A DNA stretch of 64,000 nucleotides from Sideroxyarcus sp. (GTDB lineage: Bacteria > Pseudomonadota > Gammaproteobacteria > Burkholderiales > Gallionellaceae): contig JAUSBR010000014.1 in the NCBI GenBank assembly GCA_030651895.1, positions 1 through 64,000 of the forward strand. Reading direction: 5' to 3'. Numbering within the stretch: position 1 is the first letter of the stretch; each line of letters opens with the position of its first letter. Below the pieces are notes generated by a model. That model was given only the letters and a program-made list of their open reading frames with translations, had not been told where the DNA came from and did not search any database. The translations under genes were made by a program, and so were the position numbers. Below are positions 38,724-55,848 of the stretch, one piece after another.

Positions 38724-38767
38724 GGTTTTTCCTTATGAGTGGCGGGCGGCGAAGGTGTATCTCACGG

Positions 38768-38773
38768 TATAAT
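38768..38773 (+). promoter_or_regulatory. ribF promoter -10 with GC-rich discriminator
   Basis: A perfect TATAAT is followed by CCGCGCC and, only nine bases after the -10, the ribF ATG. The transcript would be nearly leaderless. No good -35 is visible. No FMN riboswitch fits in this space. Confidence 0.4.
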
Positions 38774-38782
38774 CCGCGCCCT

Positions 38783-39709
38783 ATGCAGATTCTACGCGGA
38801 CTCCATTCCAACGACACCGAAAAAGTTGCGGTCACCGTCGGTAATTTCGACGGGGTGCATCTCGGTCATCAGGCGCTGCTCAACGAGCTGCGCGCCGTCG
38901 CGCACCAGCGCGGTCTTGAGACTGCAGTGGTGATCTTCGAGCCGCATCCGCGCGAGTTCTTTACGCCGCAGCAGGCACCCGCACGACTGACCAGCCTGCG
39001 CGAGAAGCTGGAACTGTTCCGCACCCTGGGGGTGGATCGCGTGCATGTATGCCGCTTCGATGCGCTGTTCGCGCAGAGGTCGGCGGCGGATTTCATTCAG
39101 GCGCTGCAGGAGAAGCTGCATGCCAAGTTCGTGCTGATCGGTGACGATTTCCGTTTCGGCAGCGGTCGTGCCGGCGATTTCGCACTGGTGCAGAAGATCG
39201 GCCTGGAGCGCGGCTTCGATGTCGCGGCGGTGCACAGCGTGCTGCACAATGGCGTGCGTATCTCCAGTACCGCGATCCGTGCGGCGCTGGCGGAAGGGCA
39301 GATCCGCGTGGCGAAGGATTATCTGGGGCGCCCCTACAGCATCAGCGGGCGCGTGGTGCACGGCGATGCCACCGGGCGCAAACTGGGTTATCCAACAGCG
39401 AACATCCAGATGAAACACAACCTGCCGCCGCTCAAGGGCGTGTATGTGGTGCTGGCACATGCCGAGGAGTTGGGGATTTTGCAGGGGGTGGCTAGTCTGG
39501 GTGTGCGGCCGACGCTGAAAGACGATGCCAAGGCCGTGCTGGAAGTACACCTGTTCGAATTCGCCCAGCAGATCTACGGCAAGCACCTGCGCGTGGAGTT
39601 CCTGCAGAAACTGCGCGATGAACAGAAGTTCAATGGGCTGGATGAGTTGACGCGGCAGATCGCGTTGGATGTTGATAATGCAAAGAGATGGTTTATCGAA
39701 CATGAGTGA
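38783..39709 (+). CDS. ribF: Bifunctional riboflavin kinase/FAD synthetase
   Basis: Phosphorylates riboflavin to FMN and adenylylates it to FAD. 308 residues. The FAD-synthetase nucleotidyltransferase motif is [10 protein letters not shown] (residues 20-29), and the C-terminal riboflavin-kinase domain begins near [26 protein letters not shown]. The ATG at 38783 is used because homologous N termini begin there. Its 3' end overlaps ileS by eight bases, starting the conserved ribF-ileS-lspA-ispH operon. Confidence 0.97.
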
Positions 39710-42512
39710 AGACAAGAAAAAATATCCGCTGAATCTCCCCGACACATCATTCCCGATGCGCGGCGACCTCGCCAAGCGCGAGCCGCTGATGCTGGCGCAA
39801 TGGCAGGCGCAACAGCGCTACCAGCGCATCCGCGCGGCGAGCAAGGGTCGCAAGCAATTCATCCTGCACGACGGCCCGCCCTACGCCAACGGCGACATCC
39901 ATATCGGCCACGCGGTGAACAAGGTGTTGAAGGACATCATCATCAAGAGCAAGACGCTGAGCAACTTCGATGCGCCTTATGTGCCGGGCTGGGATTGCCA
40001 CGGCCTGCCGATCGAATTGCAGGTGGAGAAGAAACACGGCAAAGCCATCCCCGCTTCACAGTTCCGCCAGCTGTGCCGCGATTACGCGAAGGAGCAGGTC
40101 GAGCGCCAGAAGAAGGACTTCATCCGCCTCGGCGTACTGGGCGATTGGGACAAGCCATATCTGACCATGGATTTCCAGACCGAGGCGGACATCATCCGCG
40201 CGCTCGGCAAGATCCATGCGCAGGGCTATCTTTACCAGGGCCGCAAGCCGGTGAACTGGTGCCTGGATTGCCAGTCGGCACTGGCCGAGGCCGAAGTGGA
40301 ATACGAGGACAAGGTCTCGGCGGCCATCGACGTCGGTTTCGAGGTTAAGGACAAGCATGCCGTGGAGAAAGCCTTCGGCGTATCGCTGCCGGGCAGTGCC
40401 AAAGTCTATGCGGTGATCTGGACCACCACGCCGTGGACGTTGCCTGCCAACCAGGGCGTGAGCGTGCATCCCAAACTGGAATACGACCTGATCCGCACCG
40501 ACAAGGGCTATCTGATCCTGGCGTTCGATCTGGCGACCGATTGCCTGAAGCGTTACCAGCTGGCCGGACACAACGACCGCGGTGACGGTCTCGCCGCCTC
40601 TTGCTACGGTGCGGCGCTTGAAGGTCTGCCCTTGCAACATCCGTTCTACGACCGCATCGTGCCGGCCATCTGCGGCGAGCATGTCACTCTGGAAGCGGGT
40701 ACCGGCCTGGTGCATACCGCACCTGCACACGGCGTGGACGACTATGTGGTCGGCCAACGCTACAACCTGCCGAACGAGAATCCGGTCGGCGATGACGGCA
40801 AGTTCATCTCCACCACACCCGCAGTCGGCGGCACGCCGCTGGCCGGCGTGTTCGTGTGGAAGGCCAATGACATCGTGTTGCAGGCAATCGAGGCGAGCGG
40901 ACACCTGTTGTGCCAGAAGAAGGTCGAGCACAGCTATCCGCATTGCTGGCGCCACAAGACGCCGATCATCTTCCGCTCCACGCCGCAGTGGTTCATCGGC
41001 ATGGAGCAGGGTGAAGAAGGCGTCTCACTGCGCGAGCTGGCCAACGATGCGGTGGCCGATACCAAGTTCTTCCCCTCATGGGGTCGTGCCCGCCTCGAAG
41101 CAATGATCAAGAACCGTCCCGACTGGTGCGTGTCGCGCCAGCGCAACTGGGGAGTGCCGATGCCGTTCTTCGTGCACAAGGAGACCATGCAACTGCACCC
41201 GCGCACGCCGGAATTGCTGGAGCAGGTCGCCATACTGGTGGAGCAGTCAGGCATCGAGGCATGGTTCTCGCTGAACAGCGCCGAACTACTGGGCGAAGAT
41301 GCGGCGCATTACCGCAAGCTCTCCGATACGCTGGATGTGTGGTTCGATTCCGGTGCGACGCACTATGCGGTGCTGGCGAAACGCGCGGGACTGCGTGCTC
41401 CGGCCGACCTGTATCTGGAGGGTTCCGACCAGCACAGGGGCTGGTTCCAGTCCTCGCTGCTCACCGGCTGCGCCATCAACGGCCGCGCGCCATATGATGC
41501 CCTGCTCACGCACGGTTTCGTGGTGGACGGTCACGGCCACAAGATGTCGAAATCCAAGGGCAACGTCATCGTGCCGCAGAAGATCATCGACACACTGGGG
41601 GCGGACATCCTGCGCCTGTGGACGGCTTCGACCGACTACTCGGGCGAACTGACCATCTCCGACGAGATTTTGAAACGCGTGGTGGAAAGCTACCGCCGCA
41701 TCCGCAACACACTGCGCTTCCTGCTGGCCAACATCGCCGACTTCGACATCAAGCGCGATGCGATGCCGGTGGAGCAATGGCTGGAGATCGACCGCTATGC
41801 ACTATCACTTGCACAGAAACTGCAGGATGAAGTGTGCGGTGACTACGAGCGTTATGAGTTCCACTTCGCCGTGCAGAAGCTGTTGAGTTTCTGCTCGGAA
41901 GACTTGGGCGGTTTCTACCTCGATATCCTGAAAGACCGTCTCTACACTGCGGGTGAGAGTTCAAAAGCGCGCCGCTCGGCACAGAACGCGCTGTACCACA
42001 TCACCCAGTCGCTGGCACGCCTGATCGCGCCTATCCTGAGCTTTACCGGCGAAGAGGTGTGGAACACCTTGCAGGGCAAGGACGACGTGAGTGTGTTCGA
42101 ACAGCTGTGGTACAAATTGCCGGATGCCGGCTTGAGCGGCGCGGCGGTGAGTGCCTGGAGCGACATCCGTGCCGTGCGCGAGCAGGTGAACAAGAAGCTG
42201 GAAGAGCAGCGCAGCACCGGCACTATCGGTTCGGCCTTGCAGGCCGAGGTTGATGTCTTTGCGCAGAAGGAGATTTTTGAGTTGCTTTCGCGCTTGGGCG
42301 ACGATCTGCGTCTGGTGTTCATCACCTCGCGCGCCAATGTGCATTTGCGCGAAGGCGAGCTGGAGATCCGGGTCACGCCGAGCGCGCAGCAGAAATGCGA
42401 ACGCTGCTGGCACTATCGCGAAGATGTCGGCAGCGATGCCAACCATCCGACTTTGTGCGGCCGCTGCGTGAGCAATCTGTTCGGCGCGGGCGAGGCAAGG
42501 AAATATGCTTAA
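39702..42512 (+). CDS. ileS: Isoleucyl-tRNA synthetase
   Basis: Class I synthetase with editing domain. 936 residues from the ATG at 39702 ([15 protein letters not shown]). The HIGH motif is at residues 67-70, the CP1 editing domain contains [18 protein letters not shown] lies near residue 615, and a C-terminal zinc knuckle is formed by [10 protein letters not shown]...CGRC. Starts inside the ribF 3' end and ends eight bases into lspA. Confidence 0.98.
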
Positions 42513-42981
42513 GCGCTGGTTGCTGCTCGCCGTTGTCGTCATCGTGCTCGACCAGTTGAGCAAGGCGGCGATCAATAGCCATTTTGTCTATAGCGAAAGC
42601 ATGGCGGTGACATCGTTCTTCAATCTGGTGCTGGCGCACAATACCGGCGCGGCGTTCAGTTTCCTGAGCGACGCGGGTGGCATGCAGCGCTGGTTCTTCA
42701 GCATCATCGCCATCGTCGCCTCGGTGTGGATCGTCTGGTTGCTGCGCAAGCACCAGACAGAGAAGCTGTTCAGCTTTGCGCTGGCGTTCATCCTCGGCGG
42801 AGCATTGGGCAACCTGATCGACCGCATCGCCTACGGTTACGTGGTGGACTTTCTCGACTTCCACTGGGCGGGCTATCATTTTGCCGCCTTCAATGTGGCC
42901 GACTCCGCCATCACCTGCGGCGCCGCTTTGCTGATCTGGGACAGTTTCAAGGGCAAACAACATGAAGCTGCTGCTCGCTAA
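42505..42981 (+). CDS. lspA: Lipoprotein signal peptidase
   Basis: Inner-membrane aspartyl protease that removes signal peptides from diacylated prolipoproteins. 158 residues with four membrane helices and the catalytic Asp pair Asp115 (VVDFLDFH) and Asp133 (FNVADSAI). NTGAAFSF is the other conserved loop. Overlaps ileS by eight bases and ispH by 20. Confidence 0.98.
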
Positions 42982-43882
42982 CCCGCGCGGCTTCTGCGCC
43001 GGGGTCGACCGCGCCATCGCGATCGTCGAGCGCGCGCTGGAACTGCACGGCGCCCCCATCTACGTCCGCCATGAAGTGGTGCACAACAAATTCGTGGTGG
43101 AAGGGTTGAAAGCCAAGGGTGCTGTGTTCATCGAGAATCTCTCCGATGTGCCGCCAGGCAGCATCCTCATCTTCAGCGCACACGGCGTGCCGCAATCGGT
43201 GCGGCGTGAGGCCGAAGCGCGCAACCTCACCGTGTTCGACGCCACCTGCCCGCTGGTGACCAAGGTGCACATCGAAGTCTCGCGCATGCGCAGCCAAGGG
43301 AAGGAGATCATCATGATCGGCCACAAGGGCCACCCCGAGGTCGAAGGCACTATGGGGCAGAGCGAGGGAGGCATGTATCTGGTCGAATCGCCGGAGGATG
43401 TCGCGAAGCTGCAGGTGCAGGACGAACAGAACTTGGCCTACGTGACACAGACCACGTTGTCGGTGGACGATGCCAGCACGATCATCGCTGCCCTCAAGAA
43501 CCGTTTTCCGTTCATCACCGGTCCGCGCAAGGACGACATCTGTTACGCCACGCAGAACCGCCAGGATTCGGTGAAGCTGCTGGCGAAGCAATGCGACCTC
43601 GTCCTCGTGGTCGGCTCGCCCAACAGCTCCAATTCCAACCGTCTGAGAGAGGTGGCGAAGAACCTCGGCATACCCGCTTACCTCATCGATAACGCCAGTG
43701 AACTCCGGCCCGAGTGGCTGCAGGACAAGCCGCGTGTGGGAATCACCGCCGGTGCATCCGCCCCGGAGGTGCTGGTGCAGGAAGTCATCGCCAGGTTGAG
43801 TGAGTTGGGAGCGGTCAGTGTGATCGAGGCGGAGGGGATACAGGAAAATGTCGTGTTCCCGTTGCCCAAGTCACTTATCTGA
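42962..43882 (+). CDS. ispH: 4-hydroxy-3-methylbut-2-enyl diphosphate reductase
   Basis: Last step of the MEP isoprenoid pathway, producing IPP and DMAPP. 306 residues, with the three cluster cysteines Cys12, Cys96 and Cys194, and His41, His124 and Glu126 around the active site. AAGGGC lies about ten bases before the ATG, inside lspA. It ends the ribF-ileS-lspA-ispH operon at a strong hairpin. Confidence 0.98.
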
Positions 43883-43954: not shown

Positions 43955-46900
43955 TTACTGCACCATCAGTTCGCGCCACGATATCCGCCGCGCGACACCA
44001 TCAGCACTGACGTTGTCCCAGACCTGGTTGACCTGCGGTGCCTGACCGCCGGATCCCTGGGTGTAGGTGCGGGTCGTTCCGTCTTGCAGCATCGCAACGA
44101 CAGGGCGTGAGGTCAATTCGTGCCCAAGCAGCACTCCCACGATCCCGTTCGGTGCAGTGGAGACTGCACCGCCGGTGCGGTAGTCGAGCTGGTACAGGAA
44201 GCTGTCACCACCGATGGAGCACGAGCTGGCGCTGGGCACGTTGGTTGCGATCACCAGTGTTCCCTTGATGATGGCCGGATCGGTGTTGTCGCGCTCGCCT
44301 GTCTGCGTGAAATCGACATACCAGCCTGAGTTGGTATTGAAGTTCACCGGATAGTTGCTCGAAACATACACCGCTTCCCCTGTCGCACAGACCGATGCCG
44401 GGGTACCCACCGGGCAACTAATCGAAGTCTGGGTTTGCTCCACGAACGTGCCTATGCTGCCCGTGTAGGTGCGCGGATCGCCGTAGATCGCCGTGCTTGG
44501 CACACTGGATGTCGGGAAGGTGTCCTTGATGGCATAGAACGAATCATGGGTGGCGGAATTCTGGTCGGTCGCCCCCAGATAACGTCCGGTGCCGATGTTC
44601 ACCACGATGTTGCCGCTCACCACGGTGATCAGCGGTTTGGCCGTGATCGGCTGCACATTGTTCGATGCATCGCGCAAGGTGGCTAGCAACTGCGCGTCGT
44701 ATCCGGATCCGGCATCGCCCAGCGTGTCATTGATATCGAAACGCCACAGGTTTCCTTCCAGATCGCCGCCGTAGACCGCCGTGGCAGTGGCATCGATACC
44801 GGGTGTCGTCACAGGCGCATCGATGCGGGCCAAACCGCTCGGCGTCGCGGCACTGCCGACGCCGGTGTCGATATCGAGGAGCAGAGTGCCGGTATCGGCG
44901 TTCAGCACATACAAGTGACCGTGGCCGTCTCCGGAAGGCGCATACGGCGGCACGTTGTTGTAACCGGAAGTCACCAGCACCACCCAGGTACCGTCGGCGA
45001 GTTTGACCACCTTGGGATTACCGTAGGTGTAGCCCATGTTGTTGTCGGTGAATTCCCACAGCGCCTTCGGGCTGGCCGGATCAGTGACATCGAGCGCGTA
45101 ATAACCCCTGCCGCCGTGGTTGAGACCGCCAATCACGATCGTCTTCCACTCTGCGGTCGCTGCATTCGTGCAGAAGCTCACACAGATATCCGCCGCGACC
45201 GGAGAACCGTCGACATAGAAGCGGTGGTTGTCGCCGTAATGCTTGTCGGCCAAGTGGTACAGGTCGGGCATGACGAGGAGCGGAATATAAGCCCAGTCTT
45301 CCTGGCCGCCTTCATCGACAAGCGCGGTCGCCGTGTTATCGGCAGCGCGGAAAGCGTGCAACATGCCGTCGTTCGCGCCGACATAGACCATCGCGCGCCG
45401 GTTGGTGTTGATGGTCTTGAAGCTCTCATAGCCCGGGTCGGAATAACTGGCGGTGGGCGCCTTGATGTAGACCGACTCCGAGTCGACGATGTCGCCGAGC
45501 AGGTGCGAACGCTCGCGGAAATACTTGGTGGCGTCGGTCTTGCCTCCCTCGTTGGTGCGCTCGCCTTTTATGTAGTTCACCAGCGTCGCCCCGGCAGCAT
45601 TCGACTCGTCAGTCGCGGTCATGCAGACCAGATCGGTCGGGCAGACTACGGAGAACTGCGCCAGGTTAGGCAGGTTGGGAAGGTCGAAATATCCCTGCTG
45701 CGTAACAGTCAGATTGGCGAAGGCGAACGATTTCAGTTTGTTGGTACCGCCACCGTTGTTCGCATTGGTCGGATCGTACGTGTAGATGACACGAGAGGTG
45801 TTCCCGTCCAGCTTGCCTTGTGCCGACCAGTCGATCGAGGCGAGCACGGCACCGGTGAGCGGATTCAGTTGCTGCCTGGTCAACTCGCCGACCCAGTTGA
45901 GGGACACATAAGAGGAGCGGAACAGGAAGTTGTCGCCCTCGGTGACGAACGCGGTACTGGTGGTGGCGGCTGCAGCCGATCCCAGACGCGCCTGGATGTC
46001 CGCCAGTGCACTGGTCAGGCCGACACCCAGATCGGACGGATTCTTGGCGCTGAAGTAGGTGCCGCGTCCATCCACGGCAGCATGCCACAGGTCGTCGATA
46101 TCCTCCGGCGTATCGTAAGCGGGGATGGGCCAGTCACAGGTCGAACCGGCCAGTTGCCACGAGCAGACCGATGCGCCGTCGGCGATATCGGGCGGCTCAT
46201 GGCCAAGCGAGTAGAAATCACTGTTGGTGGTGTTGGTGGCGTTGGCGAGGACAGACTGGTAGGCCGGGTCGAACACCATGCGGCCGCGCGCGCCCAGACC
46301 CAGGGTGAAGGTCGTCATGTGCTGGTGTTGGGCTGTATCCAGCGCGGTGGTGGGCACGTTGTCGTCGCTGACGTCGGTGCCATTGACCAGTCCGGGGGCG
46401 GCGGTGTTCTCATTGCCCCAAGTGCTGTGGCGCAGATCGGTCTTCCAGTAATACTCGGCGACGTCGGCCAGGGTATCGAAGGTGCCGCCGCTGGGGGCCG
46501 AGCAGAAGGTCGCTATCCAGCCATTGCCTGCATTGGCCGCTTCCGCGACACAGCCGGCTGCGGGCACGCCCGCGGTCGTGGTGGTGAGGCACGTTGTAGT
46601 GCGATTGGTCAGGGCGTTAAAGCCCGGCGTGCACGAAGCGACACCATGTGCGGCCACCACCGTGTTATTGACGCAGGTTGTGGTGGTCCAGGGTGATACC
46701 CCTAAGGTGCCGGCGGTGCAAGACCCGACCGCGGTCGGGCCGGTTGTGAGCGTCTGGCAGTTGATCCGCTGGCCGGAAGCATTGAACGCAGGCGCATTGG
46801 CGGTACAGCTGGAGGCTGGCAGCCAGGCCTGGCTTGGCCACGCCGGCGTGTTGGCCGGGGTGGTGTTGGCGTTGACTACCCGGCACTCGCGCGCCTGTGC

Positions 46901-49900
46901 GGTAGAAGAACCGGAGGCGGCGGGCTGTGCCACAGCCGGGCACACAGCCCCGGCATAATCGGACCAGCCGGTCCAGGTCGAGTACTGGCAGTTCGTGCCG
47001 CTAAGGATGGTCATGGCAACGCCAAACGATTCCGAACTGTAGTTGTTGGTACAGGAAGCAATGTTGCCCCATCCTCCCCAGTTGTATCGGCAATCGACCG
47101 TGCCGCTTGGGGTGCAACTCACATTGGCTGCCGTGGTGTTGATCCAACCGCTCATTGCACCCGTGGGGCAAGCGGTCGTGACCTTGTTGGCCGTTGGGGT
47201 AGACACGCCGACCGTGGTGGTTCCGGTAAGACCGTTGTAGTTGATCGCGCAAGTCGGCGGATAGGTCGTGACATAATTTGTACTCACATTAGTGGTCGCC
47301 GGGCAGCGGATGGTGCTACCCCAGGTCGGCGTACCAGCTGCGCGCGTGCCGCCGGTACAGGTTTCGCCCGCGACCAAGTTCCGGTCTCCGCCATAAGTCG
47401 CGCCGTTCAGAGGGCAAGCGATGACGACCTTGTTGGCCGCCGGCGGGGCGGAAAGGGCAGGGACGGCCGAGCCGACCGTGGTGGTTCCGGTGAGTCCGCC
47501 GTAATTGACCGTGCAATCGGGGGTGGCGAAGGTGACATAGGTATTCGCCACGCCTGTGGTGGCCGGGCACTGGATCGTGCTACCCCAGGTCGGTGAGCCG
47601 GCTGCCTGCACGCCGCCGGTACAGGTTTGGCCCGAGGTCAGGTTCTGGGTTCCGCCATAAGTCGTGCCGGTCGTTGGGCAAGCGGTGATGACCGTGCCGG
47701 CGGTGGGCACAGTGGTGGTTCCGGAGGCGCCGCCATAATTGATCGTACAGGTGGGGGCGGCAAAAGTGACATAAGTGCTCGTCGCACCGGTGGTCGGGCA
47801 GTTGATGGTGCTGCCCCAGGTCGGGGAACCGGCCGCGCGCACGCCGCCGGTACAGGTTTGGCCTGCGGTCAGGCTCTGGGTCCCGCCATAGGTCGCGCCA
47901 GTCGTGGGACAGGCGGTGATGACATTGCCGCTGGGGTTGGCTGAGCTGATTCCGCCGGTGCCGTTGTAACCGATCGTGCAAGTGTTCGCGGCGTAGGTGA
48001 CATAAACAGGTGCCAGCGCGGCACCGGTCACGCACTCGACGGTGTTACCCCAGGTAGGCGTGCCGGCAGCGCGTGTTCCGCCGGTGCAGGTAGCGCTTGC
48101 GCCTATGTTCTGGGCAGGGCTATAAGTTGCGTTAAGTGTACAGGCCGTGGTGACCTGGCCGCCCACATTGCCGAGCGTGCAGGTCGGTGGATAGGTGTCG
48201 ATGTAGTCCGTTACACCAGTTCCCAGTGAGCAGGCCACATGCGCCGATGCGGCACAAGTGGCGATGGCTGCCGGCGGGGTCCAGGCTGCCGTGGGGCAGG
48301 CCGTGACGACGATGCCACCCGTGCCGGCCGTGCTGGTACCGCTGAGGCCGCCGTAATTGACCGCGCAAGATCCCGCCGAGGCCATCGCGTAGTTTACATA
48401 AGCCGTGGTGGCTGCGCCGGTCGGGCACTGGATGGTGGTTCCGTTACCGGTACAGGTCTGTCCGGCGGCAAGCGTGGTCACTGCTGACCAGGCTGCATTG
48501 ACCGGGCAGGCGGTGACGACCAGGCCGCCGCTGGCCGTGCTGGTTCCCGGATTGTTATAGGTAACGGTGCAAGTCGGCGCGGCATAGGTGACATAGTTCG
48601 TGGTCGCAGCGCCGGTCGAGCACTGCACGTTGGCGCCGGTGGTGCAGGACTGGCTGCCGGTCAGCGTGGTGGTTCCGCTGAACGCCCCAGCAGTGGAGCA
48701 AAGCGTGACGTTGCCGCCGCTGGCCGTGCTGGTGCCGCCTGCATTGTAGGTGTTGGTGCAAGTCGCGCCGTAAGTCAGATAAGCGGGGGTCGCGGCAGCC
48801 ATTGAGCACTGCACATTGGCCAAGGTGGCATTGCACGAGGCTACACCGCTGGAGATTGGGCCAAAAGCTGCATTGACCGGGCAGGCAGTAACGACTGTCG
48901 TGCCAACGGCATTCGCAGTGGATGTATTGGTGCTGGTATTGTAAGTGGTCGTGCAAGACGGTGCGACCGCACTCCACGCTAGATAACTTGTGGCTGCGCC
49001 AATGACTTGGCATTGCTTCGCCAAACCCACCGTATAGTTCGGGCCGGCGGATTGCGCGGCGGGAATACATTGGCCGTTCGCTGAGATGTTAGCGAAACCC
49101 GTCCACGGCAAATATTGGCATTGCGTAGTGTATCCGCTGGTATCGGGCGACGAGTCCACAGTACAAGATGCGGCGTTGGTCCAGGCGGTGGTCACCAGCG
49201 ATTGACACTGGGTGGCAGTGCCGACGGTGTAATTGGGGTTGACGGACTGCGCCAGGGCAGTGCAGGTATCTGTACCGGCCCAGCCGCTCCAGCCCGTGTA
49301 TTGGCATTGCGTGGTTTGGCCGCTGCCGTTGGGAACGGTGGTCGCCGTGCAGGATGCCACGTTGTGATAGGCGGTGGAGACCACGCTCTGGCACTGGGTC
49401 GCTGTTGCCACTGTGTAATTCGGTGCCGCGGACTGGGGCAGAGCAGTGCAGGAAGTTGCATTGGCATAAGCAGTCCAGGCCGTGTAACGGCAGCTGCTGC
49501 CGTTGCCGGACCAGGTCGTGCCGGCTGTGGTGACGGTGCCGAAGCTAGAGGTGCAGCTTGCCGGGTTCGTCCAGGTGCCTGCCGCCGCGGTCCAGAGCGT
49601 GCTGCCGCCCGCAGCCGTGACATAGCGGCATTCACGCCAGAAGCCGTCGATCTGTTGCGCCCAGGTGCAGGAACCCACATCGGACCAGCCGCCCCATGTG
49701 CCTCCGGAATTGAAGGATGTCCGGGTCTGCAGGTACATGGTGGAGCCCTGCAGTGTGCTGGTGCTGGACTGCAGTTGCGATGTCTGTTCCTGCAGCGACG
49801 AGGTGCGACGCTGCAATTGCGTGACCTGTCTCTGCAACTGGGATGTATTTATTTGCAGTGTGGCGGTCGTTTGTTGCTGCTTGGTCTGCCATTGCAATGC

Positions 49901-51481
49901 GGCGGTCGTCGCTTGCAGGTTGGTGGCCCACAGCAGCGGAGCGGTGGTTCTTTGCAGTTTGGTCTGCCATTGCAGGGGGGCCGTGGTCTGTTGCTGGTCG
50001 GTCGACCAGAGTTGCTGCTGGATGGTCTGTTGCAGGTTGGTGCGCCATTGCAGCGGCGCATCGGTATGTTGCAGGTTGCTCTGCCACTGCAGGTTGGCAT
50101 CGGTATGTTGCAGGTTGCTTTGCCACTGCAGGGTCGCGTCGGTATGACGCAGGTTGCTTTGCCACCGCAGGGTCGCGTCGGTATGGCGCTGGGTCGTCGC
50201 CCATTGCAACGGGCCGGTCTGGCGTTGCAGATCGCTGGTCCGCGACTGGGTCTGCTCCGTCCATCTCTGTATGTTGCTGGTGCTCCGGGTGATCTCTGTC
50301 AGGGTCTCCGTGGTGTGGCTGGTGGAGCGCAAGCGGTAGGCACCGTCGAACATCGGGCGCGGTTCATCACCGTCCTGATTGCCGATAGCAGTGGTGTTAT
50401 CTAGCTGGGTGGCGGCATTGCCGTTCCATGAGCCGTCAGAGGTCAGGATGGTGAAGTTCTGCTGGCAGGAATACTGGATCGGGTCGTCTACGGCGACAGT
50501 GTTGAATGTGGCGAGTCGGCCCGCATACATCTTGCCGACATTGGCCAGCACTTCCCGCAACGGGGAGATGAAGCCCGGGGTCGCGGCATACAACTTGTCA
50601 TACCAGAGGCCTTTTTGCGTTAAGTCGAATTGGCTCAAGCCCAGGAAATCGGTGCCGGTGTTGTTGTTGATACTTGCAAAACCGATGCGGAAACCGTTGC
50701 CGATGGTGCGGAAAGCGAGGCCGGTGGCGGTTTTCATCGTTTGCATGCGGGTACGGTAGTAGCTGTACCAGTTGGCGAAGTTCTGGCTCTCTTCGGCAAA
50801 GGTGCAGGTGGCGCCGGCGCAGTCGGTGCGTGCAAGCCCTTTGGTGTAGGACGGAGTGGCAGCGCTGAGGGTGATCTTGGTGAACAGGGTATTGACCGGA
50901 TGGACGCCGTCCACTGCGGTCACCGAACCTACGACACTGTTGCATTCACGGTAGAAGAAGCTGCTGGTGTCGTAGTAGTTTTGCTCCAGCGGGGTGTCCT
51001 GGAAGCCGCTATAGACATAGTAGAAGGCCGTCTGCGCAGCATCCGCGCTGCGGTATGTGGTGTCCGCATCGACGAAACTGGTGCTCAGATTGACGATTCC
51101 CAGTGCAGTATTGAAACCATCCCGCCAGGCGGCGGTGAAAGTGGAATTTCCGTCCGGGTTCAGTCCGGTGGCATTGAGTCTTGTGCCGTCAGCCAGGACC
51201 GGCGTCTCGTAGCGGATGGCCGGATCGTAGTAGACGCCGTTGCATTGGTTCGATGCGATGCCGTATTTTCCGGCATTGAAGTCGCTGGCTTCATTCGGCA
51301 TGAAGTCGGATTGCATGGTGAGCGAGTCGTCCAGCACCAGGAACACGTTGGGTAATACCGCCGCGGTCGGATCGGTGATCAAAGGCTTGTCGGCGAGATC
51401 GGTGGTGGCTGCCTGCGCGTGCAAGGCCGCTGCCAGCAGCATGCCGAAGGCGAGGGAGCGGGTGTATTGGCGGGTGTTCAT
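43955..51481 (-). CDS. pilY1: Giant PilY1-like type IV pilus tip adhesin
   Basis: Secreted pilus-tip and pilus-biogenesis factor of 2508 residues; PilY1 proteins are usually 1000-1400. A signal peptide (cleavage after AQA, about residue 24) leads into a von Willebrand A-like domain whose metal site reads DDSLT (about 49-53). Normal PilY1 order is kept to SDGSWNG (about 347) and resumes at LADVAEYYWKTDL (about 1670). Between them is an insertion of about 1300 residues: a Trp/Gln-rich heptad and 13-residue repeat region (about 400-590) and a Cys/Thr/Gly-rich repeat region (about 590-1660). The C-terminal PilC-type beta-propeller is intact (YVGANDGMLHAF near 2030, GGLNHGGRGYYALDV, YGGDLEGNLWRFDI near 2235, GTGRYLG). 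AAGGAG precedes the ATG. It is the last gene of the minor-pilin operon. Confidence 0.93.
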   Translation of the reverse strand: MNTRQYTRSLAFGMLLAAALHAQAATTDLADKPLITDPTAAVLPNVFLVLDDSLTMQSDFMPNEASDFNAGKYGIASNQCNGVYYDPAIRYETPVLADGTRLNATGLNPDGNSTFTAAWRDGFNTALGIVNLSTSFVDADTTYRSADAAQTAFYYVYSGFQDTPLEQNYYDTSSFFYRECNSVVGSVTAVDGVHPVNTLFTKITLSAATPSYTKGLARTDCAGATCTFAEESQNFANWYSYYRTRMQTMKTATGLAFRTIGNGFRIGFASINNNTGTDFLGLSQFDLTQKGLWYDKLYAATPGFISPLREVLANVGKMYAGRLATFNTVAVDDPIQYSCQQNFTILTSDGSWNGNAATQLDNTTAIGNQDGDEPRPMFDGAYRLRSTSHTTETLTEITRSTSNIQRWTEQTQSRTSDLQRQTGPLQWATTQRHTDATLRWQSNLRHTDATLQWQSNLQHTDANLQWQSNLQHTDAPLQWRTNLQQTIQQQLWSTDQQQTTAPLQWQTKLQRTTAPLLWATNLQATTAALQWQTKQQQTTATLQINTSQLQRQVTQLQRRTSSLQEQTSQLQSSTSTLQGSTMYLQTRTSFNSGGTWGGWSDVGSCTWAQQIDGFWRECRYVTAAGGSTLWTAAAGTWTNPASCTSSFGTVTTAGTTWSGNGSSCRYTAWTAYANATSCTALPQSAAPNYTVATATQCQSVVSTAYHNVASCTATTVPNGSGQTTQCQYTGWSGWAGTDTCTALAQSVNPNYTVGTATQCQSLVTTAWTNAASCTVDSSPDTSGYTTQCQYLPWTGFANISANGQCIPAAQSAGPNYTVGLAKQCQVIGAATSYLAWSAVAPSCTTTYNTSTNTSTANAVGTTVVTACPVNAAFGPISSGVASCNATLANVQCSMAAATPAYLTYGATCTNTYNAGGTSTASGGNVTLCSTAGAFSGTTTLTGSQSCTTGANVQCSTGAATTNYVTYAAPTCTVTYNNPGTSTASGGLVVTACPVNAAWSAVTTLAAGQTCTGNGTTIQCPTGAATTAYVNYAMASAGSCAVNYGGLSGTSTAGTGGIVVTACPTAAWTPPAAIATCAASAHVACSLGTGVTDYIDTYPPTCTLGNVGGQVTTACTLNATYSPAQNIGASATCTGGTRAAGTPTWGNTVECVTGAALAPVYVTYAANTCTIGYNGTGGISSANPSGNVITACPTTGATYGGTQSLTAGQTCTGGVRAAGSPTWGSTINCPTTGATSTYVTFAAPTCTINYGGASGTTTVPTAGTVITACPTTGTTYGGTQNLTSGQTCTGGVQAAGSPTWGSTIQCPATTGVANTYVTFATPDCTVNYGGLTGTTTVGSAVPALSAPPAANKVVIACPLNGATYGGDRNLVAGETCTGGTRAAGTPTWGSTIRCPATTNVSTNYVTTYPPTCAINYNGLTGTTTVGVSTPTANKVTTACPTGAMSGWINTTAANVSCTPSGTVDCRYNWGGWGNIASCTNNYSSESFGVAMTILSGTNCQYSTWTGWSDYAGAVCPAVAQPAASGSSTAQARECRVVNANTTPANTPAWPSQAWLPASSCTANAPAFNASGQRINCQTLTTGPTAVGSCTAGTLGVSPWTTTTCVNNTVVAAHGVASCTPGFNALTNRTTTCLTTTTAGVPAAGCVAEAANAGNGWIATFCSAPSGGTFDTLADVAEYYWKTDLRHSTWGNENTAAPGLVNGTDVSDDNVPTTALDTAQHQHMTTFTLGLGARGRMVFDPAYQSVLANATNTTNSDFYSLGHEPPDIADGASVCSWQLAGSTCDWPIPAYDTPEDIDDLWHAAVDGRGTYFSAKNPSDLGVGLTSALADIQARLGSAAAATTSTAFVTEGDNFLFRSSYVSLNWVGELTRQQLNPLTGAVLASIDWSAQGKLDGNTSRVIYTYDPTNANNGGGTNKLKSFAFANLTVTQQGYFDLPNLPNLAQFSVVCPTDLVCMTATDESNAAGATLVNYIKGERTNEGGKTDATKYFRERSHLLGDIVDSESVYIKAPTASYSDPGYESFKTINTNRRAMVYVGANDGMLHAFRAADNTATALVDEGGQEDWAYIPLLVMPDLYHLADKHYGDNHRFYVDGSPVAADICVSFCTNAATAEWKTIVIGGLNHGGRGYYALDVTDPASPKALWEFTDNNMGYTYGNPKVVKLADGTWVVLVTSGYNNVPPYAPSGDGHGHLYVLNADTGTLLLDIDTGVGSAATPSGLARIDAPVTTPGIDATATAVYGGDLEGNLWRFDINDTLGDAGSGYDAQLLATLRDASNNVQPITAKPLITVVSGNIVVNIGTGRYLGATDQNSATHDSFYAIKDTFPTSSVPSTAIYGDPRTYTGSIGTFVEQTQTSISCPVGTPASVCATGEAVYVSSNYPVNFNTNSGWYVDFTQTGERDNTDPAIIKGTLVIATNVPSASSCSIGGDSFLYQLDYRTGGAVSTAPNGIVGVLLGHELTSRPVVAMLQDGTTRTYTQGSGGQAPQVNQVWDNVSADGVARRISWRELMVQ
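47150..48995 (-). repeat. Cys-rich tandem repeats of about 78 residues inside pilY1
   Basis: At least seven degenerate copies of one module in the coding direction. Each has a Cys after the motif STIxC, a YVTxAxPTC turn followed by xINYxGxxGTT, then an ACP motif and QxLxxGxTCTGG. The TWG segment recurs with its DNA counterpart (CCCCAGG on the plus strand) at about 47317, 47581, 47812 and 48046, giving spacings of 264, 231 and 234 bases, all multiples of three. Four conserved Cys per unit suggest disulphide-stabilised small domains outside the cell. Confidence 0.85.
49720..50290 (-). repeat. Trp/Gln-rich 39-bp repeat and heptad region inside pilY1
   Basis: The clearest copies start at 50058, 50097, 50136 and 50175 on the plus strand, exactly 39 bases apart. 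They encode 13-residue units such as LQWQSNLQHTDAN, with about nine recognisable units. They pass into strict seven-residue units (LQRQVTQ, LQRRTSS, LQEQTSQ, LQSSTST, LQGSTMY). Leu at the first and seventh positions and a Trp in most units indicate a long amphipathic helix or coiled coil, residues about 400-590. Confidence 0.9.
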
Positions 51482-51497: not shown

Positions 51498-52139
51498 TTA
51501 CATGGCTAACATGACTTGGACATAACTCACGGTATTGCGCGGCCCCTGTACGCGGGAAGTGACGCGGTAATAGCGGCGGGTGAGGGCGATACATTGCTGG
51601 CTGCCGGCACCCAGGTCGCTGCCGCTGCAATTGCCCGACATGCTGGGCGGCGCCTTGACGCACGGCTCGACTTGTCCCTCGCCATCGCACATGCTTTCCA
51701 CAATGTAGGAGACGCTATTGCCGAAGGCATCATTGGGGACGACCGGGCACGGGGTGAGCAGGGTCGAGGTGCTGCTGTCGCAGGCGCTGGCTGAGATGGC
51801 GGCCCAGTAGGTTTGCCAGCTGACATGCGGAGGTTCTTGTTGCGGGTTGCGCCAGGAGATGTAACCCAAGGGGCAGGTGCCGATGCATGTGAGCTGGTGA
51901 TTGGCGACGACTGCAGGCAACAGATTTCTGGCGGCCTCTTCGGCGCCCGCATCGGCAGCATGGGCTGCCGCTTGCTGGAAGGCCAGATTGCCCGCGATGA
52001 TGTTCGAGGTATCCACCGAGCGCATCAGCGCAATGGTGGCCAGGGTCATGGCGACCAGGATCACCAGAGTGATGATCAGCGTCGCGCCAGTTTGCTTCCG
52101 ACGCGGAATGCCGCTTTGTTGGGTAGTTAGGGTTAACAT
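51498..52139 (-). CDS. pilX: Type IV pilus assembly protein PilX
   Basis: Minor pilin-associated protein of 213 residues. PilX N-terminal pattern: KQTGATLIITLVILVAMTLATIALM, a hydrophobic helix after a basic stretch, followed by the conserved DTSNIIAGNLAFQQAAAHAADAG segment, which marks the PilX family. Seven Cys in the C-terminal part may form disulphides. The ATG overlaps the pilW stop by seven bases. pilY1 begins 16 bases downstream with its own AAGGAG. Confidence 0.92.
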   Translation of the reverse strand: MLTLTTQQSGIPRRKQTGATLIITLVILVAMTLATIALMRSVDTSNIIAGNLAFQQAAAHAADAGAEEAARNLLPAVVANHQLTCIGTCPLGYISWRNPQQEPPHVSWQTYWAAISASACDSSTSTLLTPCPVVPNDAFGNSVSYIVESMCDGEGQVEPCVKAPPSMSGNCSGSDLGAGSQQCIALTRRYYRVTSRVQGPRNTVSYVQVMLAM

Positions 52140-53179
52140 CCTTTTGCTCCTGACCAGACGCTGTTACGGATAGGAATGATGGTTTCAAAAGTCTTGTAAC
52201 GGTAACGGCCCCAGTCAGCCCCCCAGGAGCTCACCGGGTTCGCGGCAACCGCGGCAGAGGCGCCGTTCGGGTTCCAGATCGGGGTTGTCGTCGTGACCTG
52301 GGTGGTGGCGATCTGGCTGTTGCGCGCCACCAGGGCTACACGCAGGGCTGCTTCTCCGACACACTGCGCACGCATGCTGACGATGTCGCCGGTAAGCGGC
52401 TGCCATGTGGCGGAAGCATTGGCGCAGTCCTGGGTCAGGTAATCGCAGACGCTCAATGAGCCGTTGCGCACGGCATAGGCCAATATCGATGGCGATGGCC
52501 CCAGGTTGAAGAGGAGCGGATGCGGGCCTGCGGCGGTGTCTTGCAGCAGGGGAACGGGATAACCATCCGCGCTGGTGACAGGAACGGTGATGGGATCGAC
52601 TCCCGTCACCCTGAGGAGGTAATGCGTGTTGGCCGCGCCGCCATTGCCGGTCCCGTCGTCCGCAATCACATAATCACCGTCTGCAAAACCGTGCCCGCCC
52701 GTTCCAGTGACGCCGCTTGCGGAGGTTCCCCCGATGATCGTGTAGGGAGCCGGGGAGGAGTTCACGATCACACCGCCTTCAGGCGTGGTGTTGCTGTTGC
52801 CATAGATGATAATGAAGGTGTCGGTTTCCGCATCGCGAACGGCGTTCAGGCTCGCATGATTGAGCACGACACCGCTCAGCGAAGGGAAGGTGACAAAGGG
52901 GGTCACAAAACTGCGGTTCACGCCGGAGATGCTGGTCAGGTTCAGTGAGCTGAGGCCGTAACCGGCCTGAGCGACATCGCGCTGCAGCGAAAACAGGGCG
53001 ATCGCCCCGCTGTTCTGGGCATCGTCACCGCCGGAGGTGGTGCGTTTCTGACTCTCGAACACCGAGGTCACCTGCATGATGATGATGATGCCAAGCAGCC
53101 CGATGACCATACCGACCATTATCTCGGTCAGGCTGAAACCCCGCTGGCGACCTTTCAAAGAAAACATGTATGTGTGCAT
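52133..53179 (-). CDS. pilW: Type IV pilus minor pilin PilW
   Basis: 348 residues. A class III prepilin leader (MHTYMFSLKGRQRG) is cut before FSLTEIMVGMVIGLLGIIII, with Glu at mature position 5. The remainder is a large globular domain with SLQRDVAQAGYG, typical of PilW. AGGAGAA precedes the ATG. Minor pilins PilVWX with PilY1 form the priming and tip complex of the type IVa pilus. Confidence 0.93.
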   Translation of the reverse strand: MHTYMFSLKGRQRGFSLTEIMVGMVIGLLGIIIIMQVTSVFESQKRTTSGGDDAQNSGAIALFSLQRDVAQAGYGLSSLNLTSISGVNRSFVTPFVTFPSLSGVVLNHASLNAVRDAETDTFIIIYGNSNTTPEGGVIVNSSPAPYTIIGGTSASGVTGTGGHGFADGDYVIADDGTGNGGAANTHYLLRVTGVDPITVPVTSADGYPVPLLQDTAAGPHPLLFNLGPSPSILAYAVRNGSLSVCDYLTQDCANASATWQPLTGDIVSMRAQCVGEAALRVALVARNSQIATTQVTTTTPIWNPNGASAAVAANPVSSWGADWGRYRYKTFETIIPIRNSVWSGAKGC

Positions 53180-53189
53180 GATTCTTCTC

Positions 53190-53693
53190 CTACAGCATTT
53201 TCTGCGCGCTGATCAGCGCGCTGGTCGAGTATGTGTGGGCGCCCTCTCCCGGCAATTGCCAGTTGATGGTGATGGTCACATCGGTACGGGTGGTCTGCAG
53301 CACGCCGGTGGGGCCCACAGGGCATGGGTTGTTGTCGCAACGCAGTATCGTATCGGTAGCAACCGTGGCGGATGCGTTCGGCAGCGCAGCGGCGATGCTG
53401 TTGAGCCACGGGGTGAAGTTCGTGCCTCCGCTGGCGTAGCTGGTGAACTCGATCGGGTCGAATGCACCGGCCACGTTTGTGGCGGATGCGACATCCGCCC
53501 ACATCATGGCGAGATGCTGGTTGGCCAGCATGCCTGCATCAGAACGGAACTTGGCGTCGCTGGACATCCTGATCGAGGCGGCCTGGAGTCCGATGATCGC
53601 CAGGATGCCGATCGAGAAAATGAGGATGGAGATGAGCGCTTCCAGCATCATGGAGCCATGTTGCTTGCGCGGTGTCGGTATCAGGATGTTCAT
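53190..53693 (-). CDS. pilV: Type IV pilus minor pilin PilV
   Basis: 167 residues from the ATG at 53693. The leader MNILIPTPRKQHGS is followed by MMLEALISILIFSIGILAIIGLQ. The family keeps a Glu at position 5 after the leader Gly; here processing would be after HGS or at Gly-Ser, which is a little unusual. WADVASATN and the Cys pair CDNNPCP resemble PilV. It starts two bases after the fimT stop. Confidence 0.9.
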   Translation of the reverse strand: MNILIPTPRKQHGSMMLEALISILIFSIGILAIIGLQAASIRMSSDAKFRSDAGMLANQHLAMMWADVASATNVAGAFDPIEFTSYASGGTNFTPWLNSIAAALPNASATVATDTILRCDNNPCPVGPTGVLQTTRTDVTITINWQLPGEGAHTYSTSALISAQKML

Positions 53694-53695
53694 GG

Positions 53696-54265
53696 TTAGC
53701 ACCCCTGGGGACTGGAACTGGACATTGCCGGGTTGCACATGCGTATCTGGCCGCCCAGGGCGACAATGACATTCAGACAACGCATCTGTCCGTTGTTTTG
53801 CAGGCATTCTCCGCCGACCTCGTTGGTGATGTTTATGGTCAGTGTGTTGTTTGTGCTGTTGCTGGAACGGCCTAAGCCATTGAAATTCACCGTGGCGCTG
53901 CCTGCGGCCACCGAGACGTTGGGCGTTCCCTCCGAGCCGGAACGAGACTGGATAACGGCGGGGCAATCGTCAACACCATCTCCGTTCAGATCGGCTACGG
54001 TGGTTACGCAACCGACTGTCCAGGAAGAATCGACGCTCGCTGTGCCGTTAAGAGTGAAATGGACATTCGCGTTGCGGCGCACGGCCTCGGCACGCGCCAA
54101 TTGCAGGCCGGACGATATGGATTCGGCAGCGGTACGTATCTGCGAGCTCTGCATCCAGGACATGAAGCTCGGTGCACCCGCGCTGGCGATGATTGCAAGT
54201 ATCGCGATTCCCATCAGCAATTCAATCATCGAGAATCCTTCCGAATTGTGCCGAACGCTTAGCAT
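53696..54265 (-). CDS. fimT: FimT/GspH-type minor pseudopilin
   Basis: 189 residues. The leader MLSVRHNSEG precedes FSMIELLMGIAILAIIASAGAP, a prepilin-peptidase site with Glu5, followed by the GspH/FimT core (AAESISSGLQLARAEAVRRNANV). In other bacteria this position in the operon is fimT or fimU. The ATG at 54265 overlaps the pilE-like stop by seven bases and follows GGTGGCGGCAG. FimT-type pilins take part in DNA uptake in some species; that function is not inferable here. Confidence 0.9.
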   Translation of the reverse strand: MLSVRHNSEGFSMIELLMGIAILAIIASAGAPSFMSWMQSSQIRTAAESISSGLQLARAEAVRRNANVHFTLNGTASVDSSWTVGCVTTVADLNGDGVDDCPAVIQSRSGSEGTPNVSVAAGSATVNFNGLGRSSNSTNNTLTINITNEVGGECLQNNGQMRCLNVIVALGGQIRMCNPAMSSSSPQGC

Positions 54266-54699
54266 CTGCCGCCACCCTTGGTGAGCCAGCAGGACGCATT
54301 TGTCCCTATCCATCCAGCAGGCGCGGGTGACGCAATGGCGGATGTCTTGGTGTTGTTCTGATTGATGGTGTAGGCAAAACCATCCGTGGGCGTGTTCGCC
54401 TTGCCTGTTGCCGTGATCGTGTAAGTGGTATCCGTTGCTGTACAGGTGATGTTGAAGTTGTTTGTGGCCGGGGATGTGACGCCACAGTCAGTGCCGCCGA
54501 GAACATCTGAATAGCGACGGTTGTCCTGAAAGTATTGCTCCATCTGCACACGGCTGGCAGCCAGAGCGGAGGTTGCTTCGGGAAGTCTGGATTTCAACAC
54601 GTAGTCGTTATAGGCGGGCATGGCCACTGTTGCTAGAATGGCGACGATGGCCACAGCAATCATTAACTCGATCAGCGTAAATCCTCTGTGCAATTTCAT
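54259..54699 (-). CDS. pilE: Type IV pilin (PilE-like)
   Basis: 146 residues. The leader MKLHRG is cut before FTLIELMIAVAIVAILATVAMPAYNDYV, with Glu5 and the long N-terminal helix. The ARMEQYFQDNRRYSD-like segment (SRVQMEQYFQDNRRYSD) and the C-terminal Cys loop (CWLTKGGGRC) fit the PilE minor-pilin group. GGGAGCG precedes the ATG. It is the first gene of the operon; in many betaproteobacteria the PilE gene follows pilY1 instead. Confidence 0.92.
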   Translation of the reverse strand: MKLHRGFTLIELMIAVAIVAILATVAMPAYNDYVLKSRLPEATSALAASRVQMEQYFQDNRRYSDVLGGTDCGVTSPATNNFNITCTATDTTYTITATGKANTPTDGFAYTINQNNTKTSAIASPAPAGWIGTNASCWLTKGGGRC

Positions 54700-54730
54700 T
54701 ATTTCGCTCCCAATTCTTGTGATGTGAAAG

Positions 54731-54761
54731 TTAATACTGATGTATCTTTGCGGCCAGTCAA
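54731..54761 (-). promoter_or_regulatory. Possible promoter of the minor-pilin operon
   Basis: On the minus strand TTGACT (54761-54756) is followed after 18-19 bases by GTATTA/TATTAA, ending about 32 bases before the pilE ATG. The spacing is slightly long. The 108-base divergent gap to thiO shows nothing else clear. Confidence 0.3.
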
Positions 54762-54807
54762 AACCGATGAGCGGGCATTTTGCCAGACCGGCGGCAGTAT
54801 AGGGTAA

Positions 54808-55848
54808 GTGATTTTGGATTCTGAATTCATAGTGATAGGCGGTGGAGCGCTGGGGTTGGCGACGGCCGGCGCGCTGTTGAGCCAAGGAACTGCCGTGACC
54901 CTGCTGGAGCGGGGCGAGATCGGGCGCGAATCCTCCTGGGCTGGCGGGGGCATTCTGTCGCCATTGTGTCCCTGGGACTATCCGGACGAGGTGAATCGCC
55001 TGGCCTTGCGCGGGATGGGCCTGTTAAGCGGCTTGGCCGAGACGTTGCAGGAGACCACGGGCATCGACCCGCAGTATCGGCGCTGCGGCATGCTGGTATT
55101 GCCGCCGTTGGATGTGCAGGCCGCATTGGAATGGTGCGCGACGCATAGGATGAAGGCGGAGGAACGCGGCGATGGCCTGTTCCTGCCCGAAGTCGCGCAG
55201 GCCCGCAATCCGCGTCTACTGCAAGCCTTGCGTGCCCGGGTCGAAAAGCTCGGCGGACGCATCGTCGAGCAATGTGAAGTCAAGCAGATCGTTGCGGAAG
55301 CGGGGCGGGTCAAGTGCTTGGCTACGACGCGGGGTGATTTCAGCGCGGATGCATACATCGTCACCGCGGGTGCGTGGAGCAAGGTACTGCTGGGTGAACA
55401 TGCCCTGAAGACCGACATCAAACCCATACGCGGACAGATGCTGCTGTTCAAATTCGATACGCCACCCTTGCCGCATATCGTGCTGCAAGGCGACATTTAC
55501 CTCATTCCGCGCAGTGACGGCCATTTGCTGCTCGGCAGCACGCGCGAGGATGTGGGTTTCGACAAATCCACCACCGACGAAGTGCGCGAGATGTTGTTGC
55601 AACGGGGCATTGCCCTGCTGCCGGCTTTGCGCGACATGCCGGTCGTCAAGCATTGGGCGGGACTGCGCCCGGCCTCTCCCGGCAACATCCCCACCATCGG
55701 TCGCCATCCGCAACTGCCTAACCTCTACATCAACAGTGGCCATTTCCGTTACGGCGTGACCATGTCACCTGCGGCCGTGGAAGTGCTGCTGAATACCATC
55801 AACGGAACGCCGCAACCGTTCGACGTGACGCCTTATCTTTGGCGTTAA
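54808..55848 (+). CDS. thiO: Glycine oxidase
   Basis: FAD-dependent oxidase giving the iminoglycine used for the thiazole part of thiamine; D-amino-acid oxidase family. 346 residues, with the N-terminal dinucleotide fold VIGGGALGLATAGALL then LLERGEIGRESSWAGGGILSP, the ThiO hallmark. C-terminal WAGLRPASPGNIPTIG and SGHFRYGVTMSP are also typical. A GTG at 54808 gives MILDSEF; a TTG two codons later is better spaced from AGGG (54801-54804) and may be the real start. No other thi genes are nearby. Confidence 0.93.
   Translation: MILDSEFIVIGGGALGLATAGALLSQGTAVTLLERGEIGRESSWAGGGILSPLCPWDYPDEVNRLALRGMGLLSGLAETLQETTGIDPQYRRCGMLVLPPLDVQAALEWCATHRMKAEERGDGLFLPEVAQARNPRLLQALRARVEKLGGRIVEQCEVKQIVAEAGRVKCLATTRGDFSADAYIVTAGAWSKVLLGEHALKTDIKPIRGQMLLFKFDTPPLPHIVLQGDIYLIPRSDGHLLLGSTREDVGFDKSTTDEVREMLLQRGIALLPALRDMPVVKHWAGLRPASPGNIPTIGRHPQLPNLYINSGHFRYGVTMSPAAVEVLLNTINGTPQPFDVTPYLWR

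Follow-up and report, generated by a model that had tools for sequence, protein, structure and literature searches.

A long cysteine-rich repeat arm, probably inserted in the vWA-like domain of a PilY1 pilus tip protein from Sideroxyarcus

Results

The pilY1 gene and its minor-pilin operon

The DNA analysed here, hereafter the window, is a stretch of 64,000 nt from Sideroxyarcus sp., and its minus strand encodes a protein of 2,508 residues with a C-terminal PilY1 beta-propeller, whose match to PF05567 (E 1.6e-36, residues 1995-2320) identifies it as a PilY1, presumably located at the type IV pilus tip. The gene is the last of an operon in which it is preceded, in this order, by ComP/PilE-like, FimT/GspH-like, PilV-like, PilW-like and PilX-like genes (Table 1); that is, the minor pilins fimT, pilV, pilW and pilX are encoded alongside pilY1. 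The GspH and ComP_DUS matches and three N_methyl matches of these pilins lie above the curated cut-offs, and those to PilX, PilW and PilV lie below. The start of the pilV-like gene at 53693 was chosen by us within a longer open reading frame, and the true start of the ComP/PilE-like pilin is probably also internal to the frame listed. Published work locates PilY1, together with the minor pilins, at the tip of the pilus (PMC8179133). On the opposite strand, the pil operon is adjoined by ispH (LytB; 42962-43882) and a class I tRNA synthetase gene with an FPG/IleRS zinc finger (39669-42512), and a FAD synthetase/riboflavin kinase gene (38735-39709) is found nearby on that strand too.

Table 1. 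Features of the pilY1 locus, with positions in the window and residues of PilY1
Feature	Residues	Position	Strand	Basis
pilY1 gene	1-2,508	43955..51481	-	ORF and Pfam match; same frame in genome G093
MIDAS motif 1, DDSLT	51-55	51317..51331	-	DxSxS in at least 90% of the 12 rows of alignment A1
N-terminal half, vWA-like domain	45-354	50420..51349	-	alignment A1; weak hhalign match to vWA domains
Asp-Gly after strand beta-4 ('TDG' equivalent; presumed MIDAS Asp)	349-350	50432..50437	-	invariant in A1
Insert, 1,284 aa	about 382-1665	46487..50338	-	comparison with insert-less relatives
Leu-Gln/Thr array, 6/7-residue spacing	about 396-590	49712..50296	-	39-bp DNA repeats
Cysteine-pair array, 31 two-cysteine units, 62 Cys	about 592-1662	46496..49708	-	sequence reading, Cys counts
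231-bp higher-order DNA repeat, in cysteine-pair array		47478..48005	-	Tandem Repeats Finder
C-terminal half, vWA-like domain	1671-1835 (end estimated)	45977..46471	-	alignments A1 and A4; weak hhalign last segment
PilY1 beta-propeller	1995-2320	44522..45499	-	PF05567; profile A1 matches PDB 3hx6, E 3.6e-99
pilX-like minor pilin		51498..52139	-	PilX_N E 2.1e-5, just under curated cut-off
pilW-like minor pilin		52133..53179	-	N_methyl above cut-off; PilW E 1.6e-4, under its cut-off
pilV-like minor pilin		53190..53693	-	TIGR02523 E 7.7e-13, just under curated cut-off
fimT/GspH-like minor pilin		53696..54313	-	GspH and N_methyl above cut-off
ComP/PilE-like minor pilin		54259..54885	-	ComP_DUS above cut-off; N_methyl at residues 63-89

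Anatomy of the insert

A preliminary description of the locus had proposed that two different repeat arrays, together an insertion of about 1300 residues in the vWA-like domain, double the length of PilY1. The comparison with relatives bore this out: about 1,284 extra residues lie between collinear flanks, a Leu-Gln/Thr array is followed by a cysteine-pair array, and the protein measures 2,508 aa vs 1,138-1,300 aa for the frames of many ordinary relatives. The extra residues sit between a segment ...DGSWNG...RPMFDG (SDGSWNG starts at residue 348) and TLADVAEYYW (LADVAEYYW starts at residue 1671). Since the pattern IG.QD...P..D that follows TDG is also present in the insert-less relatives (consensus A4), the boundaries of the insert were set at about 382 and 1665.

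The composition of the insert is simple and rich in Thr, Ala, Ser and Gly. Over residues 382-604 the hydrophobic periodicity is 6.5 residues, a value for which none of 300 shuffles was equally high. As regards a possible coiled coil, most of 15 related arrays have 7 as their most frequent Leu-Gln spacing; in the window PilY1 a period of 6.5 reaches significance, and periods of 3.5 and 7 do not. The 31 units of the cysteine-pair array span residues 605-1660, and the array is covered only in part by the 231-bp DNA repeats. A motif WxxW/Y/F before a cysteine occurs seven times in this array, at six of the 31 units, vs 0.7 times in shuffled sequences, and 70 times in 26 arrays taken together vs 7.5 in shuffles (maximum 14), one of these arrays (row L036) being reduced to 6 residues, so that 25 are valid. 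The motif is missing from several arrays (e.g. L158, L173 and L140).

Searches for known families gave no match to the cysteine-pair array in Pfam at E <= 5, among PHROGs at E <= 0.01 or among PDB sequences at E <= 1, and no NCBIfam model matched it. When 12 array pieces were compared with Pfam, nothing rose above chance, the best E value being 0.028 in one of the 12. Thrombospondin type 1 repeats were considered and rejected: no TSP_1 match at E <= 1 was obtained in the 12 pieces, and the units have two cysteines each, vs six in TSP_1 domains (PMC9198472).

The insertion site in the vWA-like domain

At the presumed MIDAS positions, taken in order, the window PilY1 has DxSxT, Ser306 in the place of Thr, and Asp349. 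Thr55 and Ser306 are conservative replacements, at least 90% of the 12 rows of alignment A1 having Ser and Thr at these positions. The sequence NFTILTSDG just before the insert resembles strand beta-4 of a vWA domain with its TDG motif, and TTFTLGLG after it resembles strand beta-5. For comparison, vWA sequences of the same order were taken from 16 loci, two of them without sequence: the TDG motif is found in 13 of the 14 (three being repeats), and TDG or SDG is followed by a VYTVGIG-like strand in 11 of the 14 (eight of 11 distinct sequences), at a distance of 27 residues, start to start, in each of the latter.

Profile matches of the flanks to vWA domains are collinear, partial and weak, and lie below the curated cut-offs. 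PF00092 matches the relative L178 at residues 307-415 (positions 16-117 of the 174 of the profile), below the curated cut-off, and stops just past the TDG motif. With hhalign, three collinear segments were aligned (11-28, 271-298 and 524-546 vs 7-24, 26-53 and 194-216), at a best probability of 17.6%; in global mode hhalign yielded no useful alignment. VWA_2 gives weak matches in six of 15 insert-less relatives at E <= 1. When a profile of the insert-less vWA-like domain was compared with solved structures, no vWA domain was reached by sequence; the antibody and complement chains that did appear (E 0.22-2.2) were taken as noise, and the 'Cake' matches of profile A1 to solved structures fall in the propeller part.

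The placement within one vWA-like domain, as the preliminary description had it, is thus a matter of weak profile matches combined with motif order: the motif order, the PF00092 match in L178 and the collinear hhalign segments agree, each of them weak, and no alignment assigned the flanks to anything other than one vWA domain. These sequence comparisons indicate that the flanks probably form one vWA domain, the insert occupying its beta4-alpha5 loop next to the MIDAS. As the insert follows TDG, which corresponds to the end of strand beta-4 with the presumed MIDAS aspartate, the arm should project from the ligand face.

Inserts at the same site across relatives

A match to the PilY1 C-terminus was found in 108 of 150 Gallionellaceae genomes, the window's own counted. 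The loci compared were best matches from the family plus the best 80 of 582 matches in named relatives, and the gap between the two flanking motifs could be measured in 109 of 140 loci; in the other 31, part of the gene is missing or no motif pattern matched, and these include the long-framed Accumulibacter loci L115 and L121, whose inserts enter no count. In 48 of the 109 loci the flanking motifs are separated by 26-52 residues, the spacing of an ordinary PilY1. The gaps of the other 61 span 119-1,322 residues, and no gap of intermediate length was found. Insert length and cysteine number are closely correlated (18 aa per Cys, r 0.96). Beyond the measured loci, an insert of 1,396 aa with 72 Cys was observed, and two loci (L222 and L223, in genomes G605 and G635) have 104 Cys each in inserts that measure 1,965 and 1,967 aa; the PilY1 frames of these two, of 3,153 and 3,164 aa, hold inserts longer than that of the window. 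In one Gallionellaceae bin (palsa_1006, L135) the PilY1 motifs are spread over three reading frames.

Arms are present at the same site in several betaproteobacterial families and, among the best 80 of 582 matches, arrays with at least 18 Cys are carried by Accumulibacter, a Rhodocyclales bin and Ramlibacter. A shorter insert, of 264 aa with 12 Cys, is present in Curvibacter sp. PAE-UM. A tree of PilY1 C-termini was built by a quick method (LG+G4) from 105 rows, namely 104 relatives and the window, five rows with duplicate C-termini having been dropped. On this tree the arrays with at least 22 Cys (12 rows) require at least six changes. Besides a second genome of the genus (G093; see below), the nearest kin of the window PilY1 have shorter inserts of 320-333 aa with 6-8 Cys, and one of these near kin (L038) has no Leu-Gln array in its insert. 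With a profile of array pieces, nine of 250 genomes of the order, presumably Burkholderiales, matched, the window's own included, and across the class one of 274, again the window's own. Within the profile and sample used, the array module therefore looks confined to the order, a single array profile being liable to miss divergent arrays. Among six genomes searched with the window array, one of them the window's own bin (73% complete), matches were found in four, every one within PilY1 frames. What had been described as one odd protein is instead a widespread module of variable length (119-1,967 aa) in many relatives, and the arm looks like a real, swappable attachment module and not an assembly error.

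Cysteine parity

Cysteines are present in 61 of the 109 measured gaps. In the 105-row tree set, the cysteine count is even in all 59 cysteine-bearing gaps (57 inserts of at least 70 aa and two ordinary gaps; range 2-62), the remaining 46 rows having no Cys; two short gaps of this set bear Cys and two inserts lack them. Parity stays even throughout 34 or more changes of the exact count along the tree, vs an even count in 50.8% of 4,348 random stretches of inserts with at least 6 Cys. Six further inserts outside the tree set are all even as well. Elsewhere in the protein, the count is even in 90 of 91 loci for the segment from DxSxS to CQQ and in 95 of the 98 loci with Cys in the C-terminal half of the vWA-like domain; it is odd in 34 of 108 for a fixed 250-aa window of the N-terminal half and in 106 of 109 for the remaining C-terminal part. 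The even counts in other vWA segments mean that parity supports pairing in general and not a special role of the arm; the pattern as a whole suggests that the insert is self-contained for disulfides. Families of DsbA and DsbB are present in all four genomes searched.

Comparison with a second genome of the genus

Genome G093, of the same genus, encodes an uninterrupted full-length PilY1 frame of 2,512 aa with the same start. One of its contigs matches the window in pieces from 41,676 to 64,000 at 92-96% DNA identity, and a second contig covers most of the window's initial 12 kb at the same identity. The bin that holds the window has 17 contigs and is 73% complete, a circumstance in favour of an assembly artefact; with the same full frame in G093 and related arrays in many other assemblies, we regard such an artefact as extremely unlikely and reject it as the origin of the insert.

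Of the 76 cysteines compared over the whole protein, 75 are common to the two proteins. Synonymous divergence, on the other hand, is patchy: it amounts to 0-2 changes per 60 codons from residue 1501 to the end, and to as many as 19 in blocks 661-900 and 1081-1260 of the array. Expressed as dS, it is lowest in the two C-terminal parts (0.007 and 0.021); the N-terminal half has 0.11 and the Leu-Gln array 0.13, and along the cysteine array three consecutive parts have 0.62, 0.28 and 0.044. The 38 codons (348-385) just before the insert have a dS of 0.60, so the divergence reaches beyond the array. In each of eight segments dN/dS is below 0.45. Synonymous divergence peaks in certain patches of the array and in the codons directly ahead of it, which suggests recombination; the pattern fits recombination or unit shuffling under constraint, the raised stretch slightly exceeding the insert. 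At 48811-49101, a stretch of the array is absent from the nucleotide match to G093 while both sides match at 92-96%, and at the protein level this stretch contains a strongly diverged patch.

Discussion

The anatomy of the PilY1 arm is well supported by these comparisons, and its function moderately so. We think it probable that the protein is a pilus tip adhesin in which a vWA scaffold bears a long, disulfide-clamped, fast-evolving and exchangeable adhesive arm, the adhesive role being one that we infer. Each two-cysteine unit would be closed by one disulfide, made in the periplasm by DsbA and DsbB, and the arm would leave the vWA domain on its ligand-binding (MIDAS) face, with the Leu-Gln array as a stalk and the units as a rigid surface resisting protease and force. 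When the pilus extends, the units may be the first part to touch a surface, a matrix polymer or a neighbouring cell; when it retracts, they may hold the load; and duplication and recombination of units may retune the length and binding of the arm. An arm of putatively disulfide-closed units, enriched in WxxW/Y/F in many arrays, would most simply touch surfaces or polymers and withstand the pull of retraction. More tentatively, and with less confidence, a large class of betaproteobacterial pili may bear at the tip, on the ligand face of the vWA domain, a recombining arm assembled like a cassette from single-disulfide units; the number and sequence of units would set the grip, and specificity would evolve through the shuffling of units rather than through point mutations.

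Several other explanations can be weighed against an adhesive arm. The arm could serve as a mechanosensor or shock absorber, in which retraction force opens the Leu-Gln stalk and the disulfide-locked units step by step, so that the tip grows longer and vWA signalling is tuned, binding being secondary. Set within the vWA-like domain and close to the presumed MIDAS, the arm would be well placed for such a role, and vWA cysteines of Pseudomonas aeruginosa PilY1 do influence surface sensing (PMC9210963). An arm held in a loop, however, would bear load only when a ligand binds the arm itself, and lengths of 119-1,967 aa at one site argue against a finely tuned lever, so that we find this explanation unlikely. 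A passive spacer or shield, which would keep the binding face off the cell's own sheath or matrix or cover it against phages or predators, its sequence mattering little beyond folding, appears improbable to a similar degree: the simple composition, a length far more variable than the position and a patchy fast divergence that would also suit escape from phages all agree with it, but many arrays, if not every one, hold more of the aromatic motif than shuffles do, and the low dN/dS indicates constraint on the sequence.

The insert could also be a repeat expansion that is merely tolerated, a functionless by-product of recombination between repeats. The tandem repeats at the DNA level, the mosaic patches and the 46 of 105 tree rows without an insert are what such a process would leave behind; even cysteine counts maintained through at least 34 changes, nearly all cysteines shared by the sister proteins despite the divergent patches, purifying selection and arrays in several separate lineages speak against it, and we hold it to be very unlikely. 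As to what the proposed adhesive arm would bind, the suggestion of an adhesin for mineral surfaces finds no support in the range of hosts: among the best 80 of 582 matches, the carriers of such arms include Accumulibacter, Curvibacter and Ramlibacter, which are not known to be iron oxidisers.

Among known systems, the closest is the ordinary PilY1/PilC/ComC family, including P. aeruginosa PilY1 (PDB 3hx6), which has in common with the window protein the beta-propeller C-terminus, the N-terminal vWA-like domain with a MIDAS-like motif and the minor-pilin operon, but which lacks the arm; the window protein, whose vWA-like domain holds the arm of about 1,284 aa, is about twice as long. A PilY1 orthologue whose vWA scaffold has received an insertion peculiar to its lineage is Acinetobacter baumannii ComC; its finger of 91 aa (residues 166-256) protrudes as antiparallel beta structure and bears a Tyr-rich motif, and deletion of the finger alone was equivalent to loss of the vWA domain for adhesion, twitching and transformation, the three functions tested (PMC10374093). 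In the window protein, an insertion within the vWA scaffold is indicated by the order of the motifs and by the comparison of insert-bearing with insert-less relatives, the vWA matches being weak, and it consists of cysteine-pair repeats reaching 1,967 aa in relatives. Extra arms around the MIDAS of a pilus vWA domain are also described for RrgA and for Streptococcus sanguinis PilB, the structure of which has been solved (PMC8179133), yet these are short, and PilB is a modular pilin and RrgA a sortase-pilus adhesin, neither being a PilY1. Dozens of short two-cysteine repeats with a Trp motif recall the Blastomyces adhesin BAD-1, with 41 repeats, each a single-disulfide loop bearing WxxWxxW (PMC3708853). 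In the window protein the closure by single disulfides is predicted from sequence; two cysteines per repeat are found and the WxxWxxW loop is not, the looser WxxW/Y/F standing before Cys at six units only, vs a motif in each loop of the fungal protein, and the likeness is one of description. Long cysteine-rich PilY1 proteins of myxobacteria, with 5-20 predicted disulfides and DUF4114 N-termini (PMC13190605), are likewise extended forms of PilY1 with many predicted disulfides; the accessible text of that paper mentions no array at the TDG site, the terms 'insertion' and 'repeats' occurring 0 times in it.

The idea of vWA inserts in PilY1 relatives is already known, and the window protein represents a far larger version of the ComC insert. 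No array of this size and kind at the TDG site is described in the accessible parts of PMC9210963, PMC9109919, PMC11891296, PMC8179133, PMC10374093 and PMC13190605, nor was one evident from the titles and abstract openings of further literature, in a survey mostly of open-access papers. The view of vWA as a scaffold for lineage-specific inserts (PMC10374093), so far based on an insert of about 90 residues, is hereby extended to one that outweighs all other parts of the protein together.

To our knowledge, which ligands are bound by environmental type IV pili, and how their tips change specificity, are largely open questions. For these the arm offers a well-defined module that is inserted at a constant site and ranges naturally from absent to about 2,000 residues in length, a testable rule, namely that cysteines come in even numbers, and a natural set of repeat proteins for the study of mechanics under pilus forces. 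A second length-variable region was also observed in the first half of the vWA-like domain, between DxSxS and CQQNF, where it spans about 235-870 aa in those named relatives (L101-L180, the best 80 of 582) in which both motifs were found.
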